Positions 1,193-15,523 of a stretch of DNA of 38,595 nt are shown piece by piece (positions within the stretch are counted from its first letter, which is position 1; every line of letters starts with the position of its first letter). Made by a program: the position numbers and the translations under genes. The DNA comes from an uncultured bacterium. GTDB lineage: Bacteria > UBP6 > UBA1177. Under the pieces are notes generated by a model. That model did no database searches. It was not told the DNA's origin and was given only the letters and a program-made list of their open reading frames with translations. The stretch lies in NCBI GenBank assembly GCA_905235605.1, contig CAJOMF010000015.1, positions 1 to 38,595 of the forward strand, in the 5' to 3' direction.

Positions 1193-1490
1193 TTTTTCCC
1201 TGCAAATATAAACACAGTTAAACACAACCAAAACCAATTCATAAAAATCCATTCAACAAAATAAGTTTTTCCGCAATCGCCACTCGCATTTCCTCGTTCT
1301 CCGACTCAACATTGTCTAACATCTAAATTTCAAAATCATTCAATAAAATTAGATAGTTGTGCTATTGAAATAAGAAAGGGGATTTTTTATAGTACGAGCG
1401 GATGAAAAAAACCGAAAAAAATCAAAGATTTTTGTTGATTATTTGAGCTGTATCGGGCTTAATAGTAAGGCTTAAACTGAAGGAGTGGCT
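1193..1490. other. Intergenic stretch before the restriction-type operon
   Basis: About 300 A+T-rich bases without a convincing gene. It holds the promoter at 1365-1393 and a weak 6-bp stem AATCAA/TTGATT near 1420-1440. No strong terminator is seen after higA. Confidence 0.5.
1365..1393 (+). promoter_or_regulatory. Promoter of the methyltransferase-helicase-NACHT block
   Basis: TTGAAA (1365-1370), a 17-base spacer and TATAGT (1388-1393) make a good sigma-70-type promoter. The leader to the ATG at 1491 would be about 90 bases. No other convincing promoter was noticed before 6537, so it may drive all three large genes. Confidence 0.55.
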
Positions 1491-2486
1491 ATGCGGGAAA
1501 TAAAGGTCGATGTAAAGGAAAACGAGATATTGAATTCAGATCCGAAACTGCTTTCAATTCTTCTGAAAGATAATTCATCCGGCAAAAATATTGTCTGGGC
1601 GACAGATGATTATGCCGAAAACGGCGAAGGTTATTCGGCAAGTGACCAGATTACAGTTGATTCCATCACTGGTGAAAACGGTGAACTTATAAAGCCGCGC
1701 ACTGAGAAAACAAAGCAGGAGCAGCTTAACCGTATCAGAAACAAGGCGGAAGTTTTCACGCCGTCGTGGATCTGCAACAAAATGAACAATCTTGTCGATG
1801 AATCGTGGTTCGGCTACAAAAATGTGTTCAATACTGAAGGTGAAGACAAGAGCTGGAAAACCAAAAAAAGCAATATCAGATTTCCTAAAGGAAAAACCTG
1901 GCAGGAGTATGTCAGAGAACAACGCCTAGAAATCACTTGCGGCGAAGCTCCGTTTCTTGTCAGCAGATACGACACTGTTTCAGGAGAGATAATCCCGATC
2001 AAAGAGCGCATCGGACTTCTTGATAGAAAGCTCCGTGTTGTTTCGGAAAATGCAACCACTCAAAAACAATGGTATTTTTGGGCAAAAGAAGCTGTAAAAA
2101 GTATTTATGGTTTCGAATGGCAGGGTGACAATGTTCTGCTTGCCAGAGAGAATCTGCTTTTCACATTTTGTGATTATCACGAGAAAAAATTCAGGAGATA
2201 TCCGAGCAAAGAACAATTCCGCAGAATAGCGGACATCATTTCGTGGAATATCTGGCAGATGGACGGATTGAAGTTCGTAATCCCGAACAGTTGTCACGAA
2301 GAACGCTCAATACAATCAGGCTTCTTTTTTGGTGCAGAAGAAGAAAAACTTCATCATTGTGAAGGCTGTGAAAAGAATGATCCGAACAAACACAACGGTA
2401 TTTACTGCTGGATTATGGACTGGTTTGATGGCAAAAAAGGCAAGAAAATCAAGTTCGCAACTTTGTTGAAGGGAGGGTTGAAATGA
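1491..2486 (+). CDS. DNA adenine methyltransferase AdoMet-binding half (restriction subunit M-like)
   Basis: This 331-residue protein carries only the first motifs of an Eco57I/gamma-class N6-adenine methyltransferase. Residues 86-92 KAEVFTP match motif X. Residues 149-156 TCGEAPFL match the AdoMet-binding motif I (usual form D-P-A-C-G-S-G), with Glu in place of Gly. Residues 206-223 YGFEWQGDNVLLARENLL match motif II. The catalytic NPPY is missing here; it lies near the C-terminus of the next protein. The tail is rich in Cys and His (C268, H288, H289, C290, C293, H301, C306), a possible metal site. The start at 1491 follows AAGGAG at 1480-1485; a GTG at 1485 is less likely. The stop overlaps the next start (ATGA at 2483-2486), suggesting coupled translation. 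Such proteins are commonly labelled restriction endonuclease subunit M. Confidence 0.75.
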   Translation: MREIKVDVKENEILNSDPKLLSILLKDNSSGKNIVWATDDYAENGEGYSASDQITVDSITGENGELIKPRTEKTKQEQLNRIRNKAEVFTPSWICNKMNNLVDESWFGYKNVFNTEGEDKSWKTKKSNIRFPKGKTWQEYVREQRLEITCGEAPFLVSRYDTVSGEIIPIKERIGLLDRKLRVVSENATTQKQWYFWAKEAVKSIYGFEWQGDNVLLARENLLFTFCDYHEKKFRRYPSKEQFRRIADIISWNIWQMDGLKFVIPNSCHEERSIQSGFFFGAEEEKLHHCEGCEKNDPNKHNGIYCWIMDWFDGKKGKKIKFATLLKGGLK

Positions 2487-5400
2487 CTTTTAAGGGAACT
2501 TTTAGTTACAAACTGATCTACATCTTTGCAATACCGGATAAGGCTCATGAAGGTTTGCTGAAAATAGGAGAAACAACGATTTCAACCGATAAGACTCCCG
2601 AAAATCTTATCCCGAACTCAAAAGATTTAAACCAAGCTGCGAAAAACCGCATTGATCAGTATACAAAAACAGCTTCAATTTCTTATAATTTGCTGCATGC
2701 GGAACTGGCTGTCAAGTCTGAACTGGTCGATGGGAATAGTATATGTGTTGCTTTTTCCGATAAAGATGTCCATTCTGTTTTGAAACGGTCTGGTATTACA
2801 CCTCACGATTTCCGTGATGACACAAAAGGCAAAGAATGGTTCAAAGTTGATTTGGAAACAGCCAAAAATGCTATCAAAGCTGTAAAAGAAGGAAGGCAAG
2901 CCCTTCAAGGAGGCGAAATATTCGATGGAATGACCCCGATTGTTTTTCGTCCCGAACAGAGAAAAGCAATTGATGAGACAAAATTCCGCTTTGAAGTTAG
3001 TGACCACATGCTTTGGAACGCAAAAATGCGTTTCGGCAAAACATTGACAGCTCTGCAGCTTGTGAAAGAATGCGGGTTCCGGAAAACGATCATCATCACT
3101 CACAGGCCTGTTGTAAACGAGAACTGGTTTGACGATTTTCATAAGATTTTTTATGACGATCCAAGTTATAAATTCGGATCTAAAACCCAAGGCGAAACGA
3201 TAGAAAAACTCATTGAAAAAGAGGATCCAAAATTTGTCTATTTCGCTTCTATTCAGGATTTGAGGGGTTCAGAGGCGGCTGGAGGAAAGTTTGATAAAAA
3301 CCTCTACCAATTTTTGATAGAATGGGATCTTGTAATTACTGATGAAGCACACGAAGGAACTCAGACGAAACTCGGACAAACTGTTACAAATCTTTTGAGT
3401 GACCACAAAAAGAAGCCGAAACGGCTTGAATTGTCGGGGACGCCTTTCAATATTCTGAGCAAATACAGCAAAGACGAAGTCTATACTTGGGATTATGTAA
3501 TGGAGCAGAGAGCCAAAACCGATTGGGAAAAATACCATTTCGGAGACAATAACCCTTATGCCGGATTGCCCAAGTTGCAGATTTATACATATAATCTCGA
3601 CAAATTCCTGCCAGGCTATATTGATGCGGCAGATTCAGCTTTCAATTTTCATGAATTTTTCAGAGTGTGGACAGGAAACCCTGCAAAAGATTTCAAACAA
3701 ATGCCGTCTGATGCAAAAGTCGGTGATTTTATTCACGAAAAAGATGTCAGAAGATTCCTTGATCTCCTTTGCAGAGAAGATGCAGCGAGCAATTATCCGT
3801 ATTCTACCGAAGAGTTCCGTAATTATTTCAGGCACTCTCTATGGATAGTTCCAGGAGTTAAGGAAGCCAAGGCGTTGTCGGCATTGTTCAGGCAACATCC
3901 GGTGTTCCAGAGTTTCAATATTGCCAATGTTGCAGGAGACGGAGACGAAGAGGAAGAATACTCTGATGCAATGAAAAAAGTTCGCAACGCTTTCGGAGAA
4001 GATCCGTCGGAAACATATTCAATCACTATTTCCTGCGGCAGACTGACTACCGGCGTGACTGTTCGTGAATGGACTGCTGTATTTATGCTTGCAGGAACAT
4101 TCTCGACATCAGCTTCAAGTTATATGCAGACGATTTTCCGTGTTCAGTCTCCGGCCAATATAAACGGAAAAATCAAAGAAAACTGCTATGTTTTCGACTT
4201 TGCTCCAGACAGGACTTTGAAAGTTGTTGCGGAAACAGCGAAAATTGCCTCTCGTCCCGGAGAGACAACCCCGAAAGATGAGGATATTTTAGGCGAGTTC
4301 CTGAATTTCTGTCCGATTATTTCGATGGAAGGCTCGAATATGAAGCCTTATGATGTGCCGAAATTGATGCAGCAGCTAAAGAAAGTGTATACGGAAAGAG
4401 TTGTCAATAACGGCTTTGATGATCCGCATATTTACAATGAAAATTTGTTGCGTCTGGATGAAGTCGAAATCAAGGATTTTGAAGAACTTAAAAAAATCGT
4501 CGGAGTCTCAAAGCAAAGCAAGAAAACAGAGGAGATAGACATTAACGATCAGGGCTTTACCGATGAAGAATATGAAATAATAAAAAAGGCAGAAAATAAG
4601 CCGAAAAAGGAACGTTCCAAAGAGGAACTGGCTCTTCTTGAAGAAAAGAAGAAAAAACAGGAGACAAAACAAAAGGCAATTTCTATTCTTCGAGGAATTT
4701 CCATCCGCATTCCGCTTTTGGTTTACGGTGCAGATATTCCGTTAGATAAAGACATTACAGTCGAAAACTTTGCTGAACTGATAGATCCGCAGTCCTGGCA
4801 GGAATTTATGCCGAAAGATGTAACGAAAGAACTGTTCAAAAAGTTCACCAAATATTATGACAAAGATATTTTTGTGGCTGCCGGAAAACGGATCCGTCAA
4901 CTTACAAAAGCGGCAGACGGATTGCCGCCGACAGAGCGGGTTCAGAAAATCGCAGCACTTTTTGCGACATTCAAAAATCCTGACAAAGAAACGGTGCTCA
5001 CCCCGTGGCGTGTAGTAAATATGCATATGAGCGAGTGTTTGGGCGGCTATGACTTTTTTGATGAATCGCATGAAAAAGAGCTGGACGAACCGCGTTTTGT
5101 CGATCGTGGCGAAGTCACGGCTGACACACTGGCAAATACAAAAGCCCAGATTTTGGAAATCAATTCCAAAACAGGCCTGTATCCGCTTTATGTCACATAC
5201 AGCATTTATCGCAAACGTTGCGATGAATGCAAAGATGCACTTACACTTGAAAAACAAAAAGAGCTCTGGAATTTGACGGTAAAAGACAATGTTTTTGTAA
5301 TCTGCAAAACTAAAATGGCCAGATCAATCACAAACAGAACCCTTTGCGGCTATAATGATGTAAAATCAAACACTTACTGTCCTGATGATCTTATAAACAA

Positions 5401-6502
5401 GTTGAAAAACAAATCAGAGCAATTCAAGAAGAAAATTCTTAAGGGTGAAACTTGGGGGAAGGAGGTTAAAGAAATGAAATTCAATGCAATAGTCGGAAAT
5501 CCGCCGTATCAGACAGAAGCGACAGGCGAAGCAAATGGATCTGATCCGATTTATCATCTTTTTATAGATGCGGCTTGTATTTTAGGTGATAGAGTTTCTT
5601 TCATTCATCCAGCCAGATTTTTATCCAATGCCGGAAAAACACCTAAAGTCTGGAATAGAAAGATGTTGAATGATGATCATTTTTCTGTTGTACGGTATTG
5701 GTCAAATGGCAAAGATGTATTTCCGACAGCAGAGATAAAAGGTGGCGTGGCAGTTACTTATTGGGATAAAAATAAAGTTTTTGAAAAAATTGGAACTTTT
5801 GTGGCATATTCAGAATTACGTTCAATCATGAAGAAGGTTTTTGAAAAAAATTTCAATACTTTTGCAGAGTTAGTATGTGCGAGAACTTTGTATCGTTTTA
5901 CAGATACTCTTTATAAAGAAAATGTATGGGCAAAATCTAGACCTAGTGATGGGCATTTATATGATATGAGTTCAAATGCTTTTGATTTGTTTCCTGAATT
6001 GTTTATAGATGAAAAACCTAATGATGATTGCGATTATGCAAAAATTTATGGACTAGTAGAGAAAAGGCGTGCTTATAAATGGATGAAAAAATCTTATATT
6101 AAAGTCCCCGACAATTTTGATTTTTATAAGGTCTTAGTTCCTGCTGCGAATGGTTCTGGTGCGATAGGCGAGGTTTTATCAACGCCAGTAATTGGGTGCC
6201 CTGGAACAGGACACACTGAAACCTTTTTGAGCATTGGAAAATTCACTACAAAAGAAGAAGCGGAAGCTTGTTTAAAATATATTAAAACTAAATTTGCTAG
6301 AGTTATGCTTTCAACTCTTAAAACAACACACCACAACATTCAAAAAACCTGGAGAAATGTTCCTCTTCAAGATTTTACCGAAAAATCAGACATAGATTGG
6401 AGTAAATCAGTGAAAGAAATCGACCAGCAACTTTACAAAAAATACGGGCTTTCAAAGGAAGAAATCGACTTTATTGAAAGCAAAGTGAAGGAGATGGAGT
6501 AA
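2483..6502 (+). CDS. GIY-YIG nuclease / SF2 helicase / NPPY methyltransferase fusion
   Basis: This is a 1339-residue restriction-type protein. Residues 9-135 look like a T5orf172/GIY-YIG domain: YIF at 13-15, KIGET at 27-31, EWFKVDLETA near the end. The expected catalytic Glu is not obvious, so activity is uncertain. Residues 160-600 form an SF2 helicase: motif I MRFGKT at 182-187, DEAH at 287-290, SGTP at 318-321, motif V GRLTTG near 519-524, motif VI QTIFRVQ at 549-555. A charged coiled segment (about 670-740) and a linker domain follow. At 1006-1009 lies the adenine methyltransferase motif NPPY, followed by a probable target-recognition region that is more A+T-rich. Motifs I and II of that methyltransferase are in the upstream gene. 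The order nuclease-helicase-methyltransferase-recognition parallels Type ISP enzymes, with a different nuclease. It probably works with the upstream protein in restriction-modification. Confidence 0.8.
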   Translation: MTFKGTFSYKLIYIFAIPDKAHEGLLKIGETTISTDKTPENLIPNSKDLNQAAKNRIDQYTKTASISYNLLHAELAVKSELVDGNSICVAFSDKDVHSVLKRSGITPHDFRDDTKGKEWFKVDLETAKNAIKAVKEGRQALQGGEIFDGMTPIVFRPEQRKAIDETKFRFEVSDHMLWNAKMRFGKTLTALQLVKECGFRKTIIITHRPVVNENWFDDFHKIFYDDPSYKFGSKTQGETIEKLIEKEDPKFVYFASIQDLRGSEAAGGKFDKNLYQFLIEWDLVITDEAHEGTQTKLGQTVTNLLSDHKKKPKRLELSGTPFNILSKYSKDEVYTWDYVMEQRAKTDWEKYHFGDNNPYAGLPKLQIYTYNLDKFLPGYIDAADSAFNFHEFFRVWTGNPAKDFKQMPSDAKVGDFIHEKDVRRFLDLLCREDAASNYPYSTEEFRNYFRHSLWIVPGVKEAKALSALFRQHPVFQSFNIANVAGDGDEEEEYSDAMKKVRNAFGEDPSETYSITISCGRLTTGVTVREWTAVFMLAGTFSTSASSYMQTIFRVQSPANINGKIKENCYVFDFAPDRTLKVVAETAKIASRPGETTPKDEDILGEFLNFCPIISMEGSNMKPYDVPKLMQQLKKVYTERVVNNGFDDPHIYNENLLRLDEVEIKDFEELKKIVGVSKQSKKTEEIDINDQGFTDEEYEIIKKAENKPKKERSKEELALLEEKKKKQETKQKAISILRGISIRIPLLVYGADIPLDKDITVENFAELIDPQSWQEFMPKDVTKELFKKFTKYYDKDIFVAAGKRIRQLTKAADGLPPTERVQKIAALFATFKNPDKETVLTPWRVVNMHMSECLGGYDFFDESHEKELDEPRFVDRGEVTADTLANTKAQILEINSKTGLYPLYVTYSIYRKRCDECKDALTLEKQKELWNLTVKDNVFVICKTKMARSITNRTLCGYNDVKSNTYCPDDLINKLKNKSEQFKKKILKGETWGKEVKEMKFNAIVGNPPYQTEATGEANGSDPIYHLFIDAACILGDRVSFIHPARFLSNAGKTPKVWNRKMLNDDHFSVVRYWSNGKDVFPTAEIKGGVAVTYWDKNKVFEKIGTFVAYSELRSIMKKVFEKNFNTFAELVCARTLYRFTDTLYKENVWAKSRPSDGHLYDMSSNAFDLFPELFIDEKPNDDCDYAKIYGLVEKRRAYKWMKKSYIKVPDNFDFYKVLVPAANGSGAIGEVLSTPVIGCPGTGHTETFLSIGKFTTKEEAEACLKYIKTKFARVMLSTLKTTHHNIQKTWRNVPLQDFTEKSDIDWSKSVKEIDQQLYKKYGLSKEEIDFIESKVKEME
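5459..5476 (+). promoter_or_regulatory. Strong internal ribosome-binding site and in-frame ATG before the NPPY domain
   Basis: AAGGAGG (5459-5465) sits 8 bases before an ATG (5474-5476) in the same frame as the long gene. Translation from here would give residues 998-1339, a 342-residue protein starting MKFNAIVGNPPY, that is, the catalytic half of the methyltransferase alone. The sequence is plain; use of the start is inferred. Confidence 0.6.
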
Positions 6503-6536: not shown

Positions 6537-9500
6537 ATGATAAAATCTATTTGGGATGTCTTCAAATACAACTTTCCAGACAATCCACAAGAAAATTTTG
6601 AATGGATGTGTTATCAATTATTTTGCAAAGAATTTAATAAAGACAATGGTATTTTTAGGCGTTATAATCAACCGGCACTTGAGGCAGAACCTATAGAAGT
6701 CGGAGACGAGATTATTGGTTTTCAGGCTAAGTTTTATACAGTTCCTCTTAATGAAAGAAAATCTGAATTAAAAGAAACAATTGAAAAAGCTAGCAAAAGA
6801 TATAAAAAGCTTACAAAAATTCTTTTTTATATAAATTCTGATTGGACATGTTCTAATAATTCAAAACAAGAAACTGATGATAGGAGGGCTGCAACAGAAA
6901 GAGAAATAGAGGACCATGCATTAAAATTAGGAATAAAAATAGAATGGAGATCTGATGCGTTTTTTAAATCGCCTTTTGTTGCTGTTAACAATGCAGATAT
7001 CTGTCAATATTTTTTTTCAAAATCCACCAATGATTATTATGAAAGAATACGCAAAATTCGAAGACAAAGTATAGAAATTCCTGAGCAGGAAAAATACACC
7101 ACACTTTTAAAACTTGAAAATGGAAACAAAATAACAAAACAGTTTTCTTTATATGAACACATAAGTAATTTATTAAAAGAAAATGAATTAGAAAAATTCC
7201 CCAATATTTTCGTAAGAGGAAATGCTGGGGTTGGTAAATCTACAGAAATGAAGTTTGCATACAACAAACTTCTTGATAAATTATCAACATCAGATAGCTA
7301 TCGTACTTATAATTTTTTACCTACTCCATATCTCTTTGAACTAAAAAATTACTATGAAGGGTGTTTGGGGGAGTTCCAACATGAAACCCCTTTGTTGTTT
7401 ATAGATGGATTGGATGAACTTCCTATTCACAAAATTATGATACTTATCAAAGAACTACATAATATTCAAGCAAAAAATTCTAGTTGCAGATTCATTTTGG
7501 CTGGCAGAGGTGCTTCGTTTATAAATGAAACATGTGAATTTGATCATGTTGATGTGGAACTTTTAACCCATATAGATACAGAAACCCAGGAACTTATATC
7601 AGAATTTAAAGGAACTCCTTTGGAATCTCTAGTTAAAATCCCTTTTTATAGAGATTTTGCCACAACAGACAAAGCTCATTCTCTGAAGACATATAAAGGT
7701 TTTATCTCAGCACTAATATTGGATAAATTAGAAAAAGATAGACAGCGATTGGACAGAAGTGAGAACAGGTCATCTTCTAGTAAATCTGCTTCGAAATTAA
7801 ATTTAGATAAAATACAAGATCGTATTTCAAAATTGGTTTATAATCTCTTTAAATCAGATAGCAGAGTTTTTACAAGAGAAGATTTAGGCGAAGATTGGGA
7901 AGACGACGAGGAGTTCTTTTTTACAAACTCTTCTTTGGTGGATTTCAATAAAAATGATAAAAACTTTAGTTTTTGCTCTAACGTATATTTTGAGTATTTC
8001 CTTGCTAAATATTATTTAACACAAGATTTTGCTCTGATTCAAAAAGATTTTTTTCTTCCTACTGGCAAAGTAATTGTTCATCACATCAATATTATAGCAA
8101 TATTGTTGAATTTACTCCCCACAGAAACGAAACTATATAAAAGACTTTCAAAAAAACTTAATTCCGAAACTCAGGCTTATATTTTGTTAACTGATTACAC
8201 TCTTTTGCCGGTACAAAATAGATTCAATTTTTATAGGAAAATAACAAACGAATATAATGCTGATAAAAAAGTAATTTATTATTCTCGTTTTACAAGAACT
8301 GATGACATATTGGCGAACATAGATTCTTTGGCAGACTCCATGCACAATCTTTTGCCAGAAGATTTTTATAATGAAGCAGTGAAAGAACATTGTGATGTTA
8401 TTGAAAAATTTTTAAAAAATCCAACAATCAATGAAATTGTACCTTTTGAAAATGCCGTCATTTTATTGAGAGCTGGCAAGAGTAATTGGAATTATAAACA
8501 GCAAGAAATGCTGAAAAAAATCTCTGTTCCACTTTTAAAGTTTTTCATAAATCACGAGCTAGCTGAAAAAATTAGAGGGCTTTTATCTGAAGATACTGTT
8601 TTAAGATGGTATGAGAATTATAAATGGACTGAAAATTGGGAGGAAAAAGAATGGATTTCTTTTGTAAAAGAATTAACAAGTGTTGAGAACACAAATTTTT
8701 ATAATTTCAAAGATGCAAAAGAATATTGTTGCAAATTGAAGTTGTTTATTCACTTTCACAATAATACTTTCATTCAAAAAATGCTTGTTCCTCTTGCGAA
8801 AAAAATATTGACATCTACCTCACCAACAGCAATTGCTTCTTGTGTCCCAAATATTATTGATGACAATTTTGAAACCCAAACAGCGGATTTTAATTACGAT
8901 ATTATTCGTTTTACAGATGTTTTTAAGAAGAGTGATGTATCTCTATCGGATATACTGCAAATTTTGCAAATTTATCCTTTAGAATATAGTGCTATTCCTA
9001 TTGAGGCACATGACCTTTATAGAGAAATTCTTAATGCCTTTGGAAGAAATATTTCAGCTATTAAAGATGAAAACATTCCTGAATTTTACAATGTCTTAGT
9101 TAAATATATAGAAACAGGTTCAGGAACTCATATCTATAATTTTAACAAATACATTAAATTGCTTAACGATGATCAAAAAGAGAATGTATTTAATTTGTTG
9201 TTTGCTGATTTGATGAAAAAAACAGGTTGGCAGAATTTGTGGATGTTACCAAACAACACAATATTACCTCTTTTGGATATGTTTGATAAAGAAAAATCAA
9301 TACGTCTTGTTGAGAAACTCAAAAATGTGGATTTGGTTTATAAGAATTGCATTACACATCTTTTCAATTCTATTAAAAATGGCAATTGTATTCATAGAGC
9401 TTATTTCTTGTATATTATTGCGGTATGTGAATATCAACTGTTGTTTCCAGATCAAGCGAAAGAATATAAAGAGCTAGAAAAAAGGCTAAACTCTTTCTAT

Positions 9501-10985
9501 GAGTATAGGGATCGTATTGTTGAGCAAGAAATTGATGTGATCACAAACAAAGACAATAGGTTTAGGAATGAGGTTAATCGTATTTTAGAATATATAGATA
9601 AACACCCGGATTTCTCAGAAAACAAAGACATCTCTGGCAAGTTATTAGACTTGAGGATCTCACATATTGAATCTAAATTAAAGCATGATTATAAAAAAGA
9701 ATATGAATATGAAATATTTTCCCCGTTTGTCATAGATTTGTTTATTCATCAAAACAATTACAATCTTCAATTGAATCATCAGAATATATATGACTGGTTT
9801 TCTGATGAGAAGTGTTTTTGGCGTGATTTATTTTGGGCATATAGTAAATTGGAAGGATTTAACGAATTCCTTAATAAAAATCCTGATTTAATAGATAGAA
9901 TAAAAAAATCCATGCAAGAAGAAGTTCTTTGTTTTTTGGATGAAAATAATGTGGCAATGTATGATGGCGGGCAAAACTGTTTCTGGGTTGTTCCATTTGT
10001 CTATTATTTAGAAAGATTGTATGATAATAAATTGCCTGATTGGTTCGATAAAGATAAAATTTTAAACTTCGTCGCTTATCCTGCTTGGCAACTTTCTGCT
10101 CATATTGAATATGATGTTCATGTGAATCTCGAATTTAAATGGAAAAATTGGAATTCTGTATTTGAATGGATAGAGGAAGTGGCTAGAATTGATAAGGACG
10201 ATATCGTAAAGAAAGCATTGTCATTATTTCCAAAATTAAAAAATGAGGAGTCCAGAGCTCAAATTCTTTCTGCTTTTACCCAAAAAGTAAAATCTGAATC
10301 TGTGTATAAAAATCAAATGCTTGATATAATTATGCAGGTTTCAATAATTGAAATCAAGAAGGATTATAAATGCAATAATAATGATTTAATTAATGGGGTT
10401 TTGTCTTATTTCTGGTCAGAAACAACTGAAAATTTTGTAGAAAGAATTTATTCTTCTATAGATTTCAAAAAATATGATTTGGATGACAAAAATTCTTGTA
10501 GAACAGCTGTGCTCGAATATTTTTGCAACATTGCGACATGTGAACAAAAAGCAAAAGTGATAGAAAGATTGAAAAACAGTATGGATAAGCCGAATATTAA
10601 AATATATCTTGCAAAATTAGGGGATAAAAAAGCGATTTTGGCTATAATTGATGGTTTTTTAAATGGCGACGATTGGAAGAGAATTTGGAATTCCTCCGAA
10701 TTATTTATGAACTCGACAAAATCATTTAAATTACTTCATAAGTGTTGCAAATTATATAGCTATTCTTTGGAAAAAGATTGTGAAAGGAGAAAACTTTTAA
10801 CATGGTTAGCAAAACGAGGTATTAAGCAAAATGCAACCAAATGGAATTTTTTGTATATAAAATATTGTTTGAATAAAGAGATAAAGAAATTGAAGAAAAA
10901 CAGTCTCTATTATGAGCACATACAGGATTTCTTAAATGAAATCGAGCAGAGAGTGTTTTCTTCAAAACAGGTAAATGATAAATAA
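6537..10985 (+). CDS. NACHT-family STAND ATPase with restriction-nuclease-like N-terminus
   Basis: A 1482-residue NLR-like protein. The first 160 residues look like a PD-(D/E)XK-type nuclease: an early helix with E22 (NFEWMCYQLF), acidic residues E49/E51, and GFQAKF at 61-66, where Q-x-K replaces E-x-K as in Mrr-like enzymes. The NACHT core follows: Walker A GNAGVGKST at 228-236, Walker B LLFIDGLDE at 286-294 with the NACHT-typical Asp-Glu pair, and a winged-helix end with FSFCSNVYFEYFLAKYYL. The remaining roughly 900 residues are helical and repeat-like with no recognised family, the usual place of the sensor in antiphage STAND proteins. SD GCGGAG (6525-6530) precedes the ATG. It starts 34 bases after the methyltransferase-helicase gene and is visibly more A+T-rich than the flanking chromosome, suggesting transfer. 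Probable role: abortive-type phage defence by nucleic-acid cleavage after sensing. Confidence 0.75.
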   Translation: MIKSIWDVFKYNFPDNPQENFEWMCYQLFCKEFNKDNGIFRRYNQPALEAEPIEVGDEIIGFQAKFYTVPLNERKSELKETIEKASKRYKKLTKILFYINSDWTCSNNSKQETDDRRAATEREIEDHALKLGIKIEWRSDAFFKSPFVAVNNADICQYFFSKSTNDYYERIRKIRRQSIEIPEQEKYTTLLKLENGNKITKQFSLYEHISNLLKENELEKFPNIFVRGNAGVGKSTEMKFAYNKLLDKLSTSDSYRTYNFLPTPYLFELKNYYEGCLGEFQHETPLLFIDGLDELPIHKIMILIKELHNIQAKNSSCRFILAGRGASFINETCEFDHVDVELLTHIDTETQELISEFKGTPLESLVKIPFYRDFATTDKAHSLKTYKGFISALILDKLEKDRQRLDRSENRSSSSKSASKLNLDKIQDRISKLVYNLFKSDSRVFTREDLGEDWEDDEEFFFTNSSLVDFNKNDKNFSFCSNVYFEYFLAKYYLTQDFALIQKDFFLPTGKVIVHHINIIAILLNLLPTETKLYKRLSKKLNSETQAYILLTDYTLLPVQNRFNFYRKITNEYNADKKVIYYSRFTRTDDILANIDSLADSMHNLLPEDFYNEAVKEHCDVIEKFLKNPTINEIVPFENAVILLRAGKSNWNYKQQEMLKKISVPLLKFFINHELAEKIRGLLSEDTVLRWYENYKWTENWEEKEWISFVKELTSVENTNFYNFKDAKEYCCKLKLFIHFHNNTFIQKMLVPLAKKILTSTSPTAIASCVPNIIDDNFETQTADFNYDIIRFTDVFKKSDVSLSDILQILQIYPLEYSAIPIEAHDLYREILNAFGRNISAIKDENIPEFYNVLVKYIETGSGTHIYNFNKYIKLLNDDQKENVFNLLFADLMKKTGWQNLWMLPNNTILPLLDMFDKEKSIRLVEKLKNVDLVYKNCITHLFNSIKNGNCIHRAYFLYIIAVCEYQLLFPDQAKEYKELEKRLNSFYEYRDRIVEQEIDVITNKDNRFRNEVNRILEYIDKHPDFSENKDISGKLLDLRISHIESKLKHDYKKEYEYEIFSPFVIDLFIHQNNYNLQLNHQNIYDWFSDEKCFWRDLFWAYSKLEGFNEFLNKNPDLIDRIKKSMQEEVLCFLDENNVAMYDGGQNCFWVVPFVYYLERLYDNKLPDWFDKDKILNFVAYPAWQLSAHIEYDVHVNLEFKWKNWNSVFEWIEEVARIDKDDIVKKALSLFPKLKNEESRAQILSAFTQKVKSESVYKNQMLDIIMQVSIIEIKKDYKCNNNDLINGVLSYFWSETTENFVERIYSSIDFKKYDLDDKNSCRTAVLEYFCNIATCEQKAKVIERLKNSMDKPNIKIYLAKLGDKKAILAIIDGFLNGDDWKRIWNSSELFMNSTKSFKLLHKCCKLYSYSLEKDCERRKLLTWLAKRGIKQNATKWNFLYIKYCLNKEIKKLKKNSLYYEHIQDFLNEIEQRVFSSKQVNDK

Positions 10986-12534: not shown

Positions 12535-12571
12535 CAATGACCACCATGAATGCTTGGAGAAAACATAAATG
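12535..12571 (+). repeat. Leader direct repeat, copy 1
   Basis: The 25 bases at 12535-12559 are identical to 13954-13978 and contain the ribosome-binding site GGAG. The next 12 bases up to and including the ATG (12569-12571) are nearly the same in both. Copy 1 is the leader of the first DUF1016 gene. Confidence 0.9.
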
Positions 12572-13594
12572 AATAAAGAACTTGTAAAAAACGATGAAAT
12601 TCAAACAAATGAAAGACTGAATGTTCTTGCCAATACTATTGTTGACGAAGTGAATCTCACAAAATCGTGTCTTGCACTTAATATAAGTGCCGTCATGGTC
12701 AAGACTTATTGGTCTGTTGGACATCACATTGTCGAGTTCGAGCAGGACGGTGGAAAAAAGGCTAAATACGGAACTTCAATGCTGACAAATCTTGCTAAAA
12801 TTCTGACAATGCGTTTGGGAAGAGGTTACAGCCGCCCAAATCTCAATAATATGCGGAAGTTTTACCTGCTATATCCACTTTGTCAGACTTCTGACAAATT
12901 AACATGGAGCCATATCTGCGAGTTAATAACAATAGACGATGATCTTGAACGTAGTTTTTACGAAAAAGAATGTGTGAAAGAAAACTGGGATGTCCGTTCC
13001 CTCCGCCGCCAGATGGATTCCGGTCTGTTTTTGAGACTTGCGGCAAGCAAAGACAAGGAAGGAATTCTTGAACTGGCAAAAACAGGCATTGAAATTCAAA
13101 AACCAATGGATGTCGTAAAAGACACATACACGCTTGAATTTCTTGGACTTCCTGAAATGGAGCGTTATTCCGAAAGTGATCTGGAACAGCGGATTATTGA
13201 CAATCTTCAAACCTTTCTGCTTGAACTCGGTAAAGGGTTCGCGTTCATCGGACGGCAGTATCCGATTACAATAAACAATGTTCATTATCATGTGGATTTG
13301 GTTTTTTATCACCGGATTTTGAAGTGCTTTGTGCTGATTGATTTAAAGAAAAATTCAGTAAAACACGAAGATATCGGGCAAATGAACATGTATATGGGCT
13401 ATTTTGCAAAGGAAGAAAACGAACCGAACGACAATCCGCCTATAGGAATTATTCTGAGTCACAACAAAGATGAACTGCTTGTTGAGTATGCAACTTATGG
13501 AATGGACAGCAATCTGTTTGTCTCAAAATATGAACTGTATTTGCCAAACCGCGAGGAACTGCGCAAATTGGTTAGCGGAATATTGTCAGAATGA
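12569..13594 (+). CDS. DUF1016 / YhcG-type PD-(D/E)XK nuclease family protein, copy 1
   Basis: 341 residues. The N-terminal DUF1016 part has VKTYWSVGHHIVEFEQDG, KYGTSMLTNLAKILT and YSRPNLNNMRKFYLLYP, followed by LTWSHICEL. The C-terminal PD-(D/E)XK part has GKGFAFIGRQYPI, VDLVFYHRILKCFVLIDLK with D243 and D258-x-K260 as likely metal-site residues, and GQMNMYMGYF. The family is widespread in mobile islands and probably nucleolytic; its target is not established. SD GGAG at 12556-12559. A palindrome inside the gene encodes residues CQTSDK. It shares family and layout with the gene at 14498 but is clearly diverged, so it is probably not a recent duplicate. Confidence 0.85.
   Translation: MNKELVKNDEIQTNERLNVLANTIVDEVNLTKSCLALNISAVMVKTYWSVGHHIVEFEQDGGKKAKYGTSMLTNLAKILTMRLGRGYSRPNLNNMRKFYLLYPLCQTSDKLTWSHICELITIDDDLERSFYEKECVKENWDVRSLRRQMDSGLFLRLAASKDKEGILELAKTGIEIQKPMDVVKDTYTLEFLGLPEMERYSESDLEQRIIDNLQTFLLELGKGFAFIGRQYPITINNVHYHVDLVFYHRILKCFVLIDLKKNSVKHEDIGQMNMYMGYFAKEENEPNDNPPIGIILSHNKDELLVEYATYGMDSNLFVSKYELYLPNREELRKLVSGILSE
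12879..12898. repeat. Palindrome inside DUF1016 copy 1
   Basis: TTTGTCAG (12879-12886), loop ACTT, then CTGACAAA (12891-12898): a perfect 8-bp stem. It encodes part of LCQTSDKL directly before LTWSHI. Confidence 0.8.
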
Positions 13595-13604
13595 GAGGAA
13601 TGTT

Positions 13605-13940
13605 TTGAAAGCTGAATATTCTGCGAGCAATTACCGTAATCTCTTAAAACAGAAAGAAGAATTCATTTCGCATAGAAACGACCCTGTAAAGGAACAAGTA
13701 AAGGAACAAGCAAAATCGCTGATTCTTGTTTTAGATGGGGAAAAAAGTAAAAAAGAATTAGTGGAATTGCTAAACTTGAAAGGTTTGAGAAATTTTTCAG
13801 AAAAGTATACTTCCCCAGCTCTGGAAGGTGGTTTTATAGAATTGACGCAACCGGATTCTCCGAACAGTCCTACGCAGAAGTATCGCTTAACGGCGAAGGG
13901 TTTGGCTTTAAAAAAGGAAATTCTGGAAATTACGAAATAA
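13605..13940 (+). CDS. Orphan winged-helix C-terminal fragment
   Basis: From a TTG at 13605, preceded by GAGAGGA (13594-13600), an open frame of 111 residues runs to TAA. The first part is basic and polar, with the repeated PVKEQVKEQ. The second half (LILVLDGEKSKKELVELL, then NFSEKYTSPALEGGFIEL and KYRLTAKG) resembles the C-terminal winged helix found on Fic-domain and AlbA-type proteins, including its typical TQKYRLT ending. No partner domain is present. It starts 10 bases after the DUF1016 stop, so it may be co-translated. It could be a small DNA-binding protein or the surviving tail of a lost gene; the TTG start is uncertain. Confidence 0.55.
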   Translation: MKAEYSASNYRNLLKQKEEFISHRNDPVKEQVKEQAKSLILVLDGEKSKKELVELLNLKGLRNFSEKYTSPALEGGFIELTQPDSPNSPTQKYRLTAKGLALKKEILEITK

Positions 13941-14310: not shown

Positions 14311-14497
14311 GAGAGACAAGAATGCGGGCGAGACAGGCGCGCTCCGACATGTCACTAAATCGGCAATTAGATTTTAGATTTTAAAATCTTGGAATAATAA
14401 ATAGGTATATTTTTATGTTTTTACTTGATATTTTGTAATTTTAAAATATGATTTCTGAGTATATTTAGCTTTTTAAAAAAATATTTTGAGGTGTAAA

Positions 14498-15523
14498 ATG
14501 AATAGTAGTTTTGTGAATCTTTATCTAAATATTAGAAACATTCTGGCGGATGCTCGTGTTTCATCATACAGAGCCGTGAATTTTGCGATGGTTTCAGCCT
14601 ATTGGAACATAGGCAAGCTGATTGTCGAAGACGAGCAGAACGGCAACAAGCGGGCAGAATACGGGAAAGCTGTACTTGAAGAACTTTCAAAAAAGCTCAC
14701 GACTGACTTCGGCAAAGGGTTTGATGTCAGTAATTTGCGATATATGCGGCTTTTTTACAAGACTTTCCCAATTTGTGACACACTGCGTCACGAATTGACA
14801 TGGAGTCATTACAGGATGTTGCTGCGTGTCAAAAATGAAGCCGCAAGACTGTGGTACATGAATGAAGCTGCGGAGCAGACTTGGTCTACAAGACAACTTG
14901 ACCGGCAGATTTCGGTTCTTTATTACGAGCGGTTGCTTTCAAGTCAGAACAAAGAAGTGGTAAAAAGGGAAGCTGAAACAAAACTTGCAGAATTTGCTCC
15001 GCAGGAGTTCATTCACGATCCGTTCGTTCTCGATTTTCTGAATCTGAAACACTCTCCGAAGCTGGAGGAATCAACGATAGAAGAAGCTTTGATCGACAAG
15101 CTGCAGCAGTTTCTGCTTGAACTCGGCAAAGGTTTCTGTCTCGAAGCAAGACAAAAACTGATGCGCTTTGAAGATGACGACTTTTATATTGACCTCGTTT
15201 TTTATCACTCGATCTTAAAATGCCACATCCTCATAGATTTGAAACTCGGCAAACTCACTCCGGCTGATGTCGGGCAGATGGACAGCTATATCCGTATGTT
15301 TGACGCACAGTACAAGCTAAAAGACGACAACCCGACAATAGGACTCATCCTTTGCTCAGAAAAGAACAATGCGGTTGTAAAGTATTCTGTCCTGAACGAT
15401 GCAAAACAGATGTTTGCTTCAAAATACGAACTCGCGCTGCCGAAACCTGAAGACCTGGAAAAACAAATCAAAATAAATCGAAGTTTCCTCGAGGAGAGGA
15501 AAGACCAGAAAACAGAGAAATAA
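14498..15523 (+). CDS. DUF1016 / YhcG-type PD-(D/E)XK nuclease family protein, copy 2
   Basis: 341 residues from the ATG at 14498 (GAGGTG at 14488-14493 is the ribosome-binding site; an upstream TTG is less likely). The N-terminus is a typical DUF1016 start: NIRNILADARVSSYRAVNFA, then YWNIGKLIVEDEQ and FDVSNLRYMRLFYKTFP. The C-terminal nuclease part has D232 in YIDLVFYH and D247-x-K249 in LIDLK, then GQMDSYIRMFD. A palindrome at 14770-14796 lies where copy 1 has one. The gene is flanked on both sides by palindromic repeats and has its own A+T-rich upstream region, so it may have arrived separately. It ends convergent with the SpoIIE gene. Confidence 0.85.
   Translation: MNSSFVNLYLNIRNILADARVSSYRAVNFAMVSAYWNIGKLIVEDEQNGNKRAEYGKAVLEELSKKLTTDFGKGFDVSNLRYMRLFYKTFPICDTLRHELTWSHYRMLLRVKNEAARLWYMNEAAEQTWSTRQLDRQISVLYYERLLSSQNKEVVKREAETKLAEFAPQEFIHDPFVLDFLNLKHSPKLEESTIEEALIDKLQQFLLELGKGFCLEARQKLMRFEDDDFYIDLVFYHSILKCHILIDLKLGKLTPADVGQMDSYIRMFDAQYKLKDDNPTIGLILCSEKNNAVVKYSVLNDAKQMFASKYELALPKPEDLEKQIKINRSFLEERKDQKTEK
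14770..14796. repeat. Palindrome inside DUF1016 copy 2
   Basis: AATTTGTGAC (14770-14779), a 7-base loop, then GTCACGAATT (14787-14796): a 10-bp stem with one G-T wobble. It encodes ICDTLRHEL just before LTWSHY, the same protein position as the palindrome in copy 1. Confidence 0.8.

Follow-up and report, generated by a model that had tools for sequence, protein, structure and literature searches.

A STAND protein from a UBP6 bacterium with an Avs4-type nuclease head and a putative sensor of a family new to the searched libraries

The STAND gene and its product

We analyzed a 38,595-nucleotide stretch of DNA from an uncultured bacterium of the UBP6 lineage, probably an inhabitant of the rumen (contig CAJOMF010000015.1), referred to here as the window, which encodes a 1,482-residue protein of the STAND superfamily. 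An N-terminal nuclease effector, a central nucleoside triphosphatase (NTPase) and a linker form what we call the head of this protein; the remainder is a putative sensor. The gene and its parts are as follows.

6537..10985, + strand: whole gene, encoding a nuclease-NTPase-sensor STAND protein of 1,482 amino acids (open frame, full-length relatives, substitution rates)
6537..7061, + strand: effector, residues 1-175, an Avs4-type PD-(D/E)XK nuclease (Mrr-like, QxK variant; PADLOC, Protein Data Bank (PDB), 36-row alignment)
6681..6731, + strand: predicted catalytic residues E49 ... Q63-x-K65 (conservation in 36 sequences)
7134..7856, + strand: NTPase, residues 200-440, STAND, NACHT-like (Foldseek matches; relative L033 passes the Pfam NPHP3_N cutoff)
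7218..7241, + strand: Walker A GNAGVGKS, residues 228-235 (sequence motif)
7392..7418, + strand: Walker B LLFIDGLDE, residues 286-294, of the DGxDE form (sequence motif; Avs4 has VVDSAEKL there)
7857..8183, + strand: helical/winged-helix linker of the head, residues 441-549, with the head-sensor exchange point at its end (identity jump, helices of the AlphaFold2 model)
8184..10982, + strand: putative sensor, residues 550-1482 (approximately 930 amino acids), an all-helical solenoid (AlphaFold2 model; common to SIR2-headed proteins)
9237..9926, + strand: most divergent sensor block, residues 901-1130 (identity and synonymous divergence against the nearest relative)

The reading frame (1,482 codons) opens with an ATG behind a GGAG-type ribosome site, its start lines up with the starts of Avs4 proteins in the alignment, and the gene is single-copy in its genome. 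Scanning with the nuclease alignment identified full-length relatives in other genomes, at 34-61% identity. The protein at 61%, which is related over its full length, comes from a yak rumen metagenome-assembled genome (MAG) of the same genus as the window (G022; JAGCXM010000031.1), and relatives from Treponema MAGs share 34-41% with the window protein. The ratio of non-synonymous to synonymous substitution rates (dN/dS) against G022 was approximately 0.3 in both halves of the protein, indicating purifying selection; together with the full-length relatives, this places the reading frame far beyond chance. Single-protein pattern scans of genome contigs and viral contigs returned no relative, nor did a full-alignment pattern scan of viral contigs.

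The nuclease head is of the Avs4 type

Residues 1-245 matched Avs4 and nothing else, with E-values of 1e-61 for the PADLOC Avs4 model, 2.8e-58 (197 bits) for NCBIfam Avs4 (NF041815) and 3.8e-39 for PDB entry 8dgf over residues 1-243. All three matches fell within about residues 1-248; similarity to E. coli Avs4 ended at residue 242, and BLAST against Avs4 detected nothing beyond residue 245. In an alignment of 36 relatives, E22, E49 and K65 were invariant and Q63 was present in at least 90% of sequences, a conserved set that is predicted to be a PD-(D/E)XK site of the QxK form. The initial annotation had described a nuclease-NACHT protein with a Q-x-K region, a Walker A motif and an Asp-Glu-rich Walker B, all of which are present (Q63-A-K65, GNAGVGKS and LLFIDGLDE); the conserved K65 is also the residue singled out there. 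Its effector-NTPase-sensor order and PD-(D/E)XK-type N-terminus stood, but a generic nuclease is too broad a description, as sequence comparison identifies the N-terminus specifically as an Avs4 nuclease. That the protein lies outside characterized clades also held for Avs4, the clade that we checked: the full-length cutoff of NF041815 is 1,500 bits, and both the window protein (197 bits) and its relatives (172-202 bits) fall below it.

When 47 full-length proteins with an Avs4-type nuclease were grouped by the body that follows, 36 fell into one Avs4 cluster and four into the family described here. The others comprised a Clostridium family (n=4), a Moraxellaceae family (n=2) and one protein standing alone. 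One nuclease head occurs on at least five different bodies. These last three groups (L008/L013/L015/L024, L005/L047 and L051), in which the Avs4 nuclease sits on non-Avs4 bodies, may represent further receptor families.

The central NTPase is NACHT-like

An AlphaFold2 model of residues 1-640 had a mean predicted local distance difference test score (pLDDT) of 76.5. In Foldseek comparisons with PDB structures, Avs4 (8dgf) was the best match to this model (3e-20), followed by NLRC4, NOD2 and NLRP3 at approximately 1e-8; TM-scores were low (0.3-0.4), so that these matches back the fold class and not its details. The Pfam NACHT profile did not match the window protein at an E-value of 0.1, although one relative (L033) scored above the Pfam cutoff for the STAND family NPHP3_N. 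The NACHT label of the initial annotation accordingly draws on the DGxDE Walker B and the similarity of fold, and not on a profile match, and is best read as NACHT-like. With an effector, then an NTPase carrying Walker A and B, then a repeat sensor, the protein has the order that characterizes the STAND superfamily. A Treponema relative (L006, genome G028) has the Walker A sequence GSHGISKS, in which serine replaces the glycine before lysine, in an otherwise intact protein.

The putative sensor is a helical solenoid

Approximately 900 C-terminal residues had been reported as unrecognized, and this was borne out: no model in Pfam, PADLOC or NCBIfam matched residues 550-1482, and a sensor profile found nothing credible among PDB sequences. 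The AlphaFold2 model of the sensor, built from a four-sequence alignment, had a mean pLDDT of 70 and consisted of approximately 50 helices with almost no strand. Its PDB structure matches were generic HEAT-type proteins with TM-scores near 0.2, a level that warrants the description "helical solenoid" and nothing finer. Comparison of the sensor with the Avs4 C-terminus by hhalign gave a probability of 0.2% (E-value 0.34), and Foldseek with the sensor model did not return Avs4. By these comparisons, the sensor is a family new to the searched libraries and unrelated in sequence to the Avs4 sensor.

Within it, residues 901-1130 share 53% identity with the nearest relative, compared with 75-76% on either side, and show a synonymous divergence (dS) of 1.2 versus 0.6. 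We infer that this block is a candidate specificity region.

One sensor with two kinds of head

In three Treponema genomes (L071, L072 and L073), the same sensor is preceded by a SIR2 domain and a STAND NTPase. SIR2_2 scored above the Pfam cutoff in both of the SIR2-headed proteins scanned, and the GAGAS, TTNFD and HGD motifs were found in all three. When the window protein was compared with L071 in blocks of 25 residues, identity was mostly 20-36% at residues 275-549, rose to 72% at residues 550-574 and continued at approximately 50-60%. A nuclease-headed Treponema protein (L069) compared with SIR2-headed L071 showed a jump from 32% to 64% at the same point near residue 550. Across the SIR2-headed relatives, identity to the window protein climbed at residue 550 from approximately 30% to 44-72%. 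Effector, NTPase and linker thus appear to have been exchanged as one head, and from these alignments it looks as though heads and sensors are exchanged as modules, the whole head being the unit. Effector swapping among STAND proteins is an accepted general idea.

The descent of these proteins is mosaic. When a clean split of the sensor tree into SIR2-headed and nuclease-headed proteins was tested, the maximum-likelihood tree mixed head types, grouping nuclease-headed L069 with SIR2-headed L071, but monophyly of the two SIR2 sensors was not rejected (approximately unbiased (AU) test, p 0.10), so that the trees fix no number of head exchanges. Identity between the window protein and G022 is 75-76% over most of the sensor and drops to 41-54% in the head, for which Treponema L006 is at least as near a match to the window protein as G022 is, with 60% in the nuclease. 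In the NTPase tree, G022 joined Treponema L069 and a grouping of G022 with the window was rejected (AU p 0.027), whereas in the sensor tree it was the grouping of G022 with L069 that was rejected (AU p 1e-35). Between the window and G022, dS was 0.12 at residues 721-780, 0.2 at 1201-1320 and 1.2 at 901-1130. Unequal constraint alone would not shift dS in this manner, so we read the pattern as recombination, and the swings within the sensor suggest repeated patchwise exchange.

Distribution of the sensor

By profile search, the sensor was present in 8 of 274 genomes of the Treponemataceae, the family of Treponema G028, and in 3 of 28 genomes of the window's small phylum, all three in the window's genus and one of them a fragment. 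Samples of 393 Bacteroidales and 391 Clostridia genomes yielded no credible sensor, and a sample of 393 wider Spirochaetota genomes no further convincing one. A Clostridia hit (L098; 117 residues, E-value 1e-4) was too weak to be taken as a relative, and a Spirochaetota hit with two stops (L086; 2.9e-4) was likewise set aside. Plasmid records held only Avs4-type heads, and phage records gave no match. Since the surveyed genomes are samples, the sensor may range more widely.

Two of the relatives are broken or fragmentary. The SIR2-headed gene of Treponema G079 (L093, about 6600-9315) is split near window residue 1148 by a two-gene IS21-like element. G020 carries a sensor fragment at a contig end (L003 / L097 8360-9218), corresponding to window residues ~1178-1344 at 80% identity; it follows the start of a methyltransferase reading frame and is either a broken remnant or an assembly join.

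Genomic neighborhood and restriction-modification linkage

The STAND gene is preceded by a pair of restriction-modification (R-M) genes.

1485..2486, + strand: DNA methyltransferase (PADLOC MTase_II, 2e-125), first of the upstream R-M pair, with a 52% homologue in Treponema G079
2483..6502, + strand: helicase-methyltransferase restriction protein (ResIII, Eco57I), ending 34 nucleotides before the STAND gene

At the N-terminus of the restriction protein (2483-6502), the GIY-YIG-like T5orf172 domain is matched weakly. The layout, in which T5orf172-like, helicase and Eco57I-type methyltransferase parts are joined in one protein behind a separate methyltransferase gene, is unusual and is conserved in Treponema G079. 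There, the SIR2-headed gene is likewise preceded by both R-M genes, as homologues of 52% and 56%. In G128, G219 and G022, the STAND gene is immediately preceded by no more than the final 147, 48 and approximately 24 bp of the R-M gene, and the 24-bp scar of G022 had no chance match in 200 shuffles. The R-M 3' end was not found upstream in G028, G090 or G029; G028 has a different R-M system upstream and YhcG and AlbA_2 genes downstream. In total, five of the eight readable loci, with both head types included, have the 3' end directly upstream, either complete or reduced to a scar of 24-147 bp. The R-M tail and the sensor therefore form shared flanks around exchangeable heads.

Downstream of the window STAND gene lie an AlbA_2 protein and two YhcG nucleases. 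The latter are YhcG (DUF1016) PD-(D/E)XK genes at 12569-13594 and 14486-15523 (+ strand), within 2 kb; the second shares 73% identity with the YhcG beside the STAND gene in Treponema G028. A reading frame at 13470-13940 (+ strand) with a Fic-like_C domain overlaps the end of the first and may represent the tail of an AlbA_2-type protein that was disrupted. Upstream of the R-M genes are what we take, by eye, to be an ORF6N/KilA-N-like fragment (1-368, - strand) and a small HigB/HigA toxin-antitoxin-like pair (550-1192, + strand). The R-M, AlbA_2 and YhcG neighbors point to a defense-island setting. Rfam found nothing in the window, and promoter-like sites occurred near chance numbers and were not used.

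Proposed function and alternatives

We consider it probable that the gene encodes a single-protein abortive antiphage STAND receptor working like the Avs and bNACHT proteins. The Avs4 head with its conserved catalytic set, the resemblance of the head model to Avs4 and then to animal NLRs, the tripartite order, the SIR2 heads on the same sensor, the defense island and purifying selection all argue for such a role, whose sensing, oligomerization and DNA cleavage steps we infer from characterized relatives. At rest, the NTPase would hold ATP/ADP and be kept inactive by the sensor. Upon infection, the helical sensor (550-1482) would bind a signal of the infection, most probably a protein of the phage. 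Oligomerization of the NACHT-like NTPase would then gather the N-terminal nuclease heads of the Avs4 type, which would cut phage and host DNA, resulting in abortive infection. The nucleases of Avs1-4 cut phage and host genomes upon recognition of the terminase, the portal or another phage protein, and Avs5 uses SIR2 as its effector (PMC12931631). Defense by bNACHT25/32 depends on their DNase head (PMC12169576).

Several points weigh against this antiphage reading. The window protein and the sensor family are known from sequences and predicted models, and confidence in the sensor model, which is four sequences deep, is moderate. As the profiles of the sensor and of the Avs4 C-terminus show no similarity, the portal, which is the target of Avs4, cannot be transferred to it. 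Finally, the sensor occurs in few genomes, although rarity says little about what it detects.

An alternative that we regard as unlikely, but live, is that the sensor acts as a guard of the adjacent R-M protein and, once a phage blocks restriction, sets off the nuclease or SIR2 head. PrrC guards the EcoprrI R-M system in a comparable fashion. The spacing of 34 nucleotides behind the R-M gene is in keeping with a guard, as is the presence of the R-M 3' end, whole or scarred, in two phyla and before both head types, and indirect, guard-type sensing has been proposed for bNACHT25 (PMC12169576). Against it, G022, G128 and G219 keep 24-147 bp of the R-M gene and no more, yet their STAND genes are intact or almost intact; G028 adjoins another R-M type and G090 none, and recombination at a shared flank explains the scars equally well. 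The same doubt attaches to a cassette, spread over two phyla, in which sensor and R-M tail are fixed flanks and whole heads are swapped in place; its most far-reaching version adds a guard role of the sensor over the R-M system. Were that version true, the alarm would be conserved and only the killing head would change.

It is rather improbable that the protein is an ordinary Avs4 whose C-terminus is a diverged portal sensor. In its favor, the head is clearly that of Avs4 and a distant similarity links the NTPases (hhalign E-value 3e-4), but similarity stops near residue 245, the full-length score is far below the Avs4 cutoff, the family stands apart from the 36-member Avs4 body cluster, and the sensors match neither by profile nor by Foldseek. 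We give equally little credence to a suicide protein triggered by stress, a plasmid or a mobile element with no specific antiphage role: STAND proteins have other uses and the island holds the presumed toxin-antitoxin-like pair, yet head, architecture and island all fit characterized antiphage STAND proteins. Decay to a gene without function, to which the IS21-type insertion in G079 and the sensor fragment in G020 might point, is scarcely credible for a window copy that is intact, with all motifs present and a dN/dS of approximately 0.3 along its whole length.

These proteins constitute a natural experiment in receptor modularity, as a single sensor is paired with two killing heads of different chemistry and a single nuclease head with at least five bodies. 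Finding the trigger would show directly that targets are recognized by the solenoid and that this recognition moves independently of the effector; it would also bring in a class of sensor missing from the searched family libraries. The small range, rumen-type bacteria of two phyla, points to phages or signals worth testing.

Comparison with known systems

The window protein shares its nuclease (37-40% identity over residues 1-245) and its order of domains with Avs4 (AVAST type 4; E. coli, PDB 8dgf), but the Avs4 NTPase is of another type, carrying VVDSAEKL in place of the DGLDE Walker B, and the Avs4 sensor is unrelated. A score of 197 bits against a cutoff of 1,500, together with the foreign sensor, indicates that the window protein is not Avs4 proper. 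Avs5 (SIR2-STAND) shares its layout of SIR2, NTPase and helical repeats with the SIR2-headed Treponema relatives; it differs from the window protein, whose head is a nuclease, SIR2 being found only in relatives with the same sensor. PADLOC Avs5 models gave no match among the five relatives scanned.

The clade 6 proteins bNACHT25/32 (PD-(D/E)XK-NACHT-NCH1) are alike in their DNase head, central DGxDE NTPase and C-terminal sensing region, whereas the window protein lacks a Pfam NACHT match and has an Avs4-type nuclease and a solenoid of approximately 930 amino acids. The Clostridium proteins (L008/L013/L015/L024; approximately 1,450-1,620 amino acids) and the Moraxellaceae proteins (L005/L047; approximately 1,250 amino acids) have the same nuclease head on bodies that cluster apart from the window family. 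Taken together, the sequence comparisons identify the window protein as a predicted STAND receptor that combines an Avs4 head with a new sensor family.

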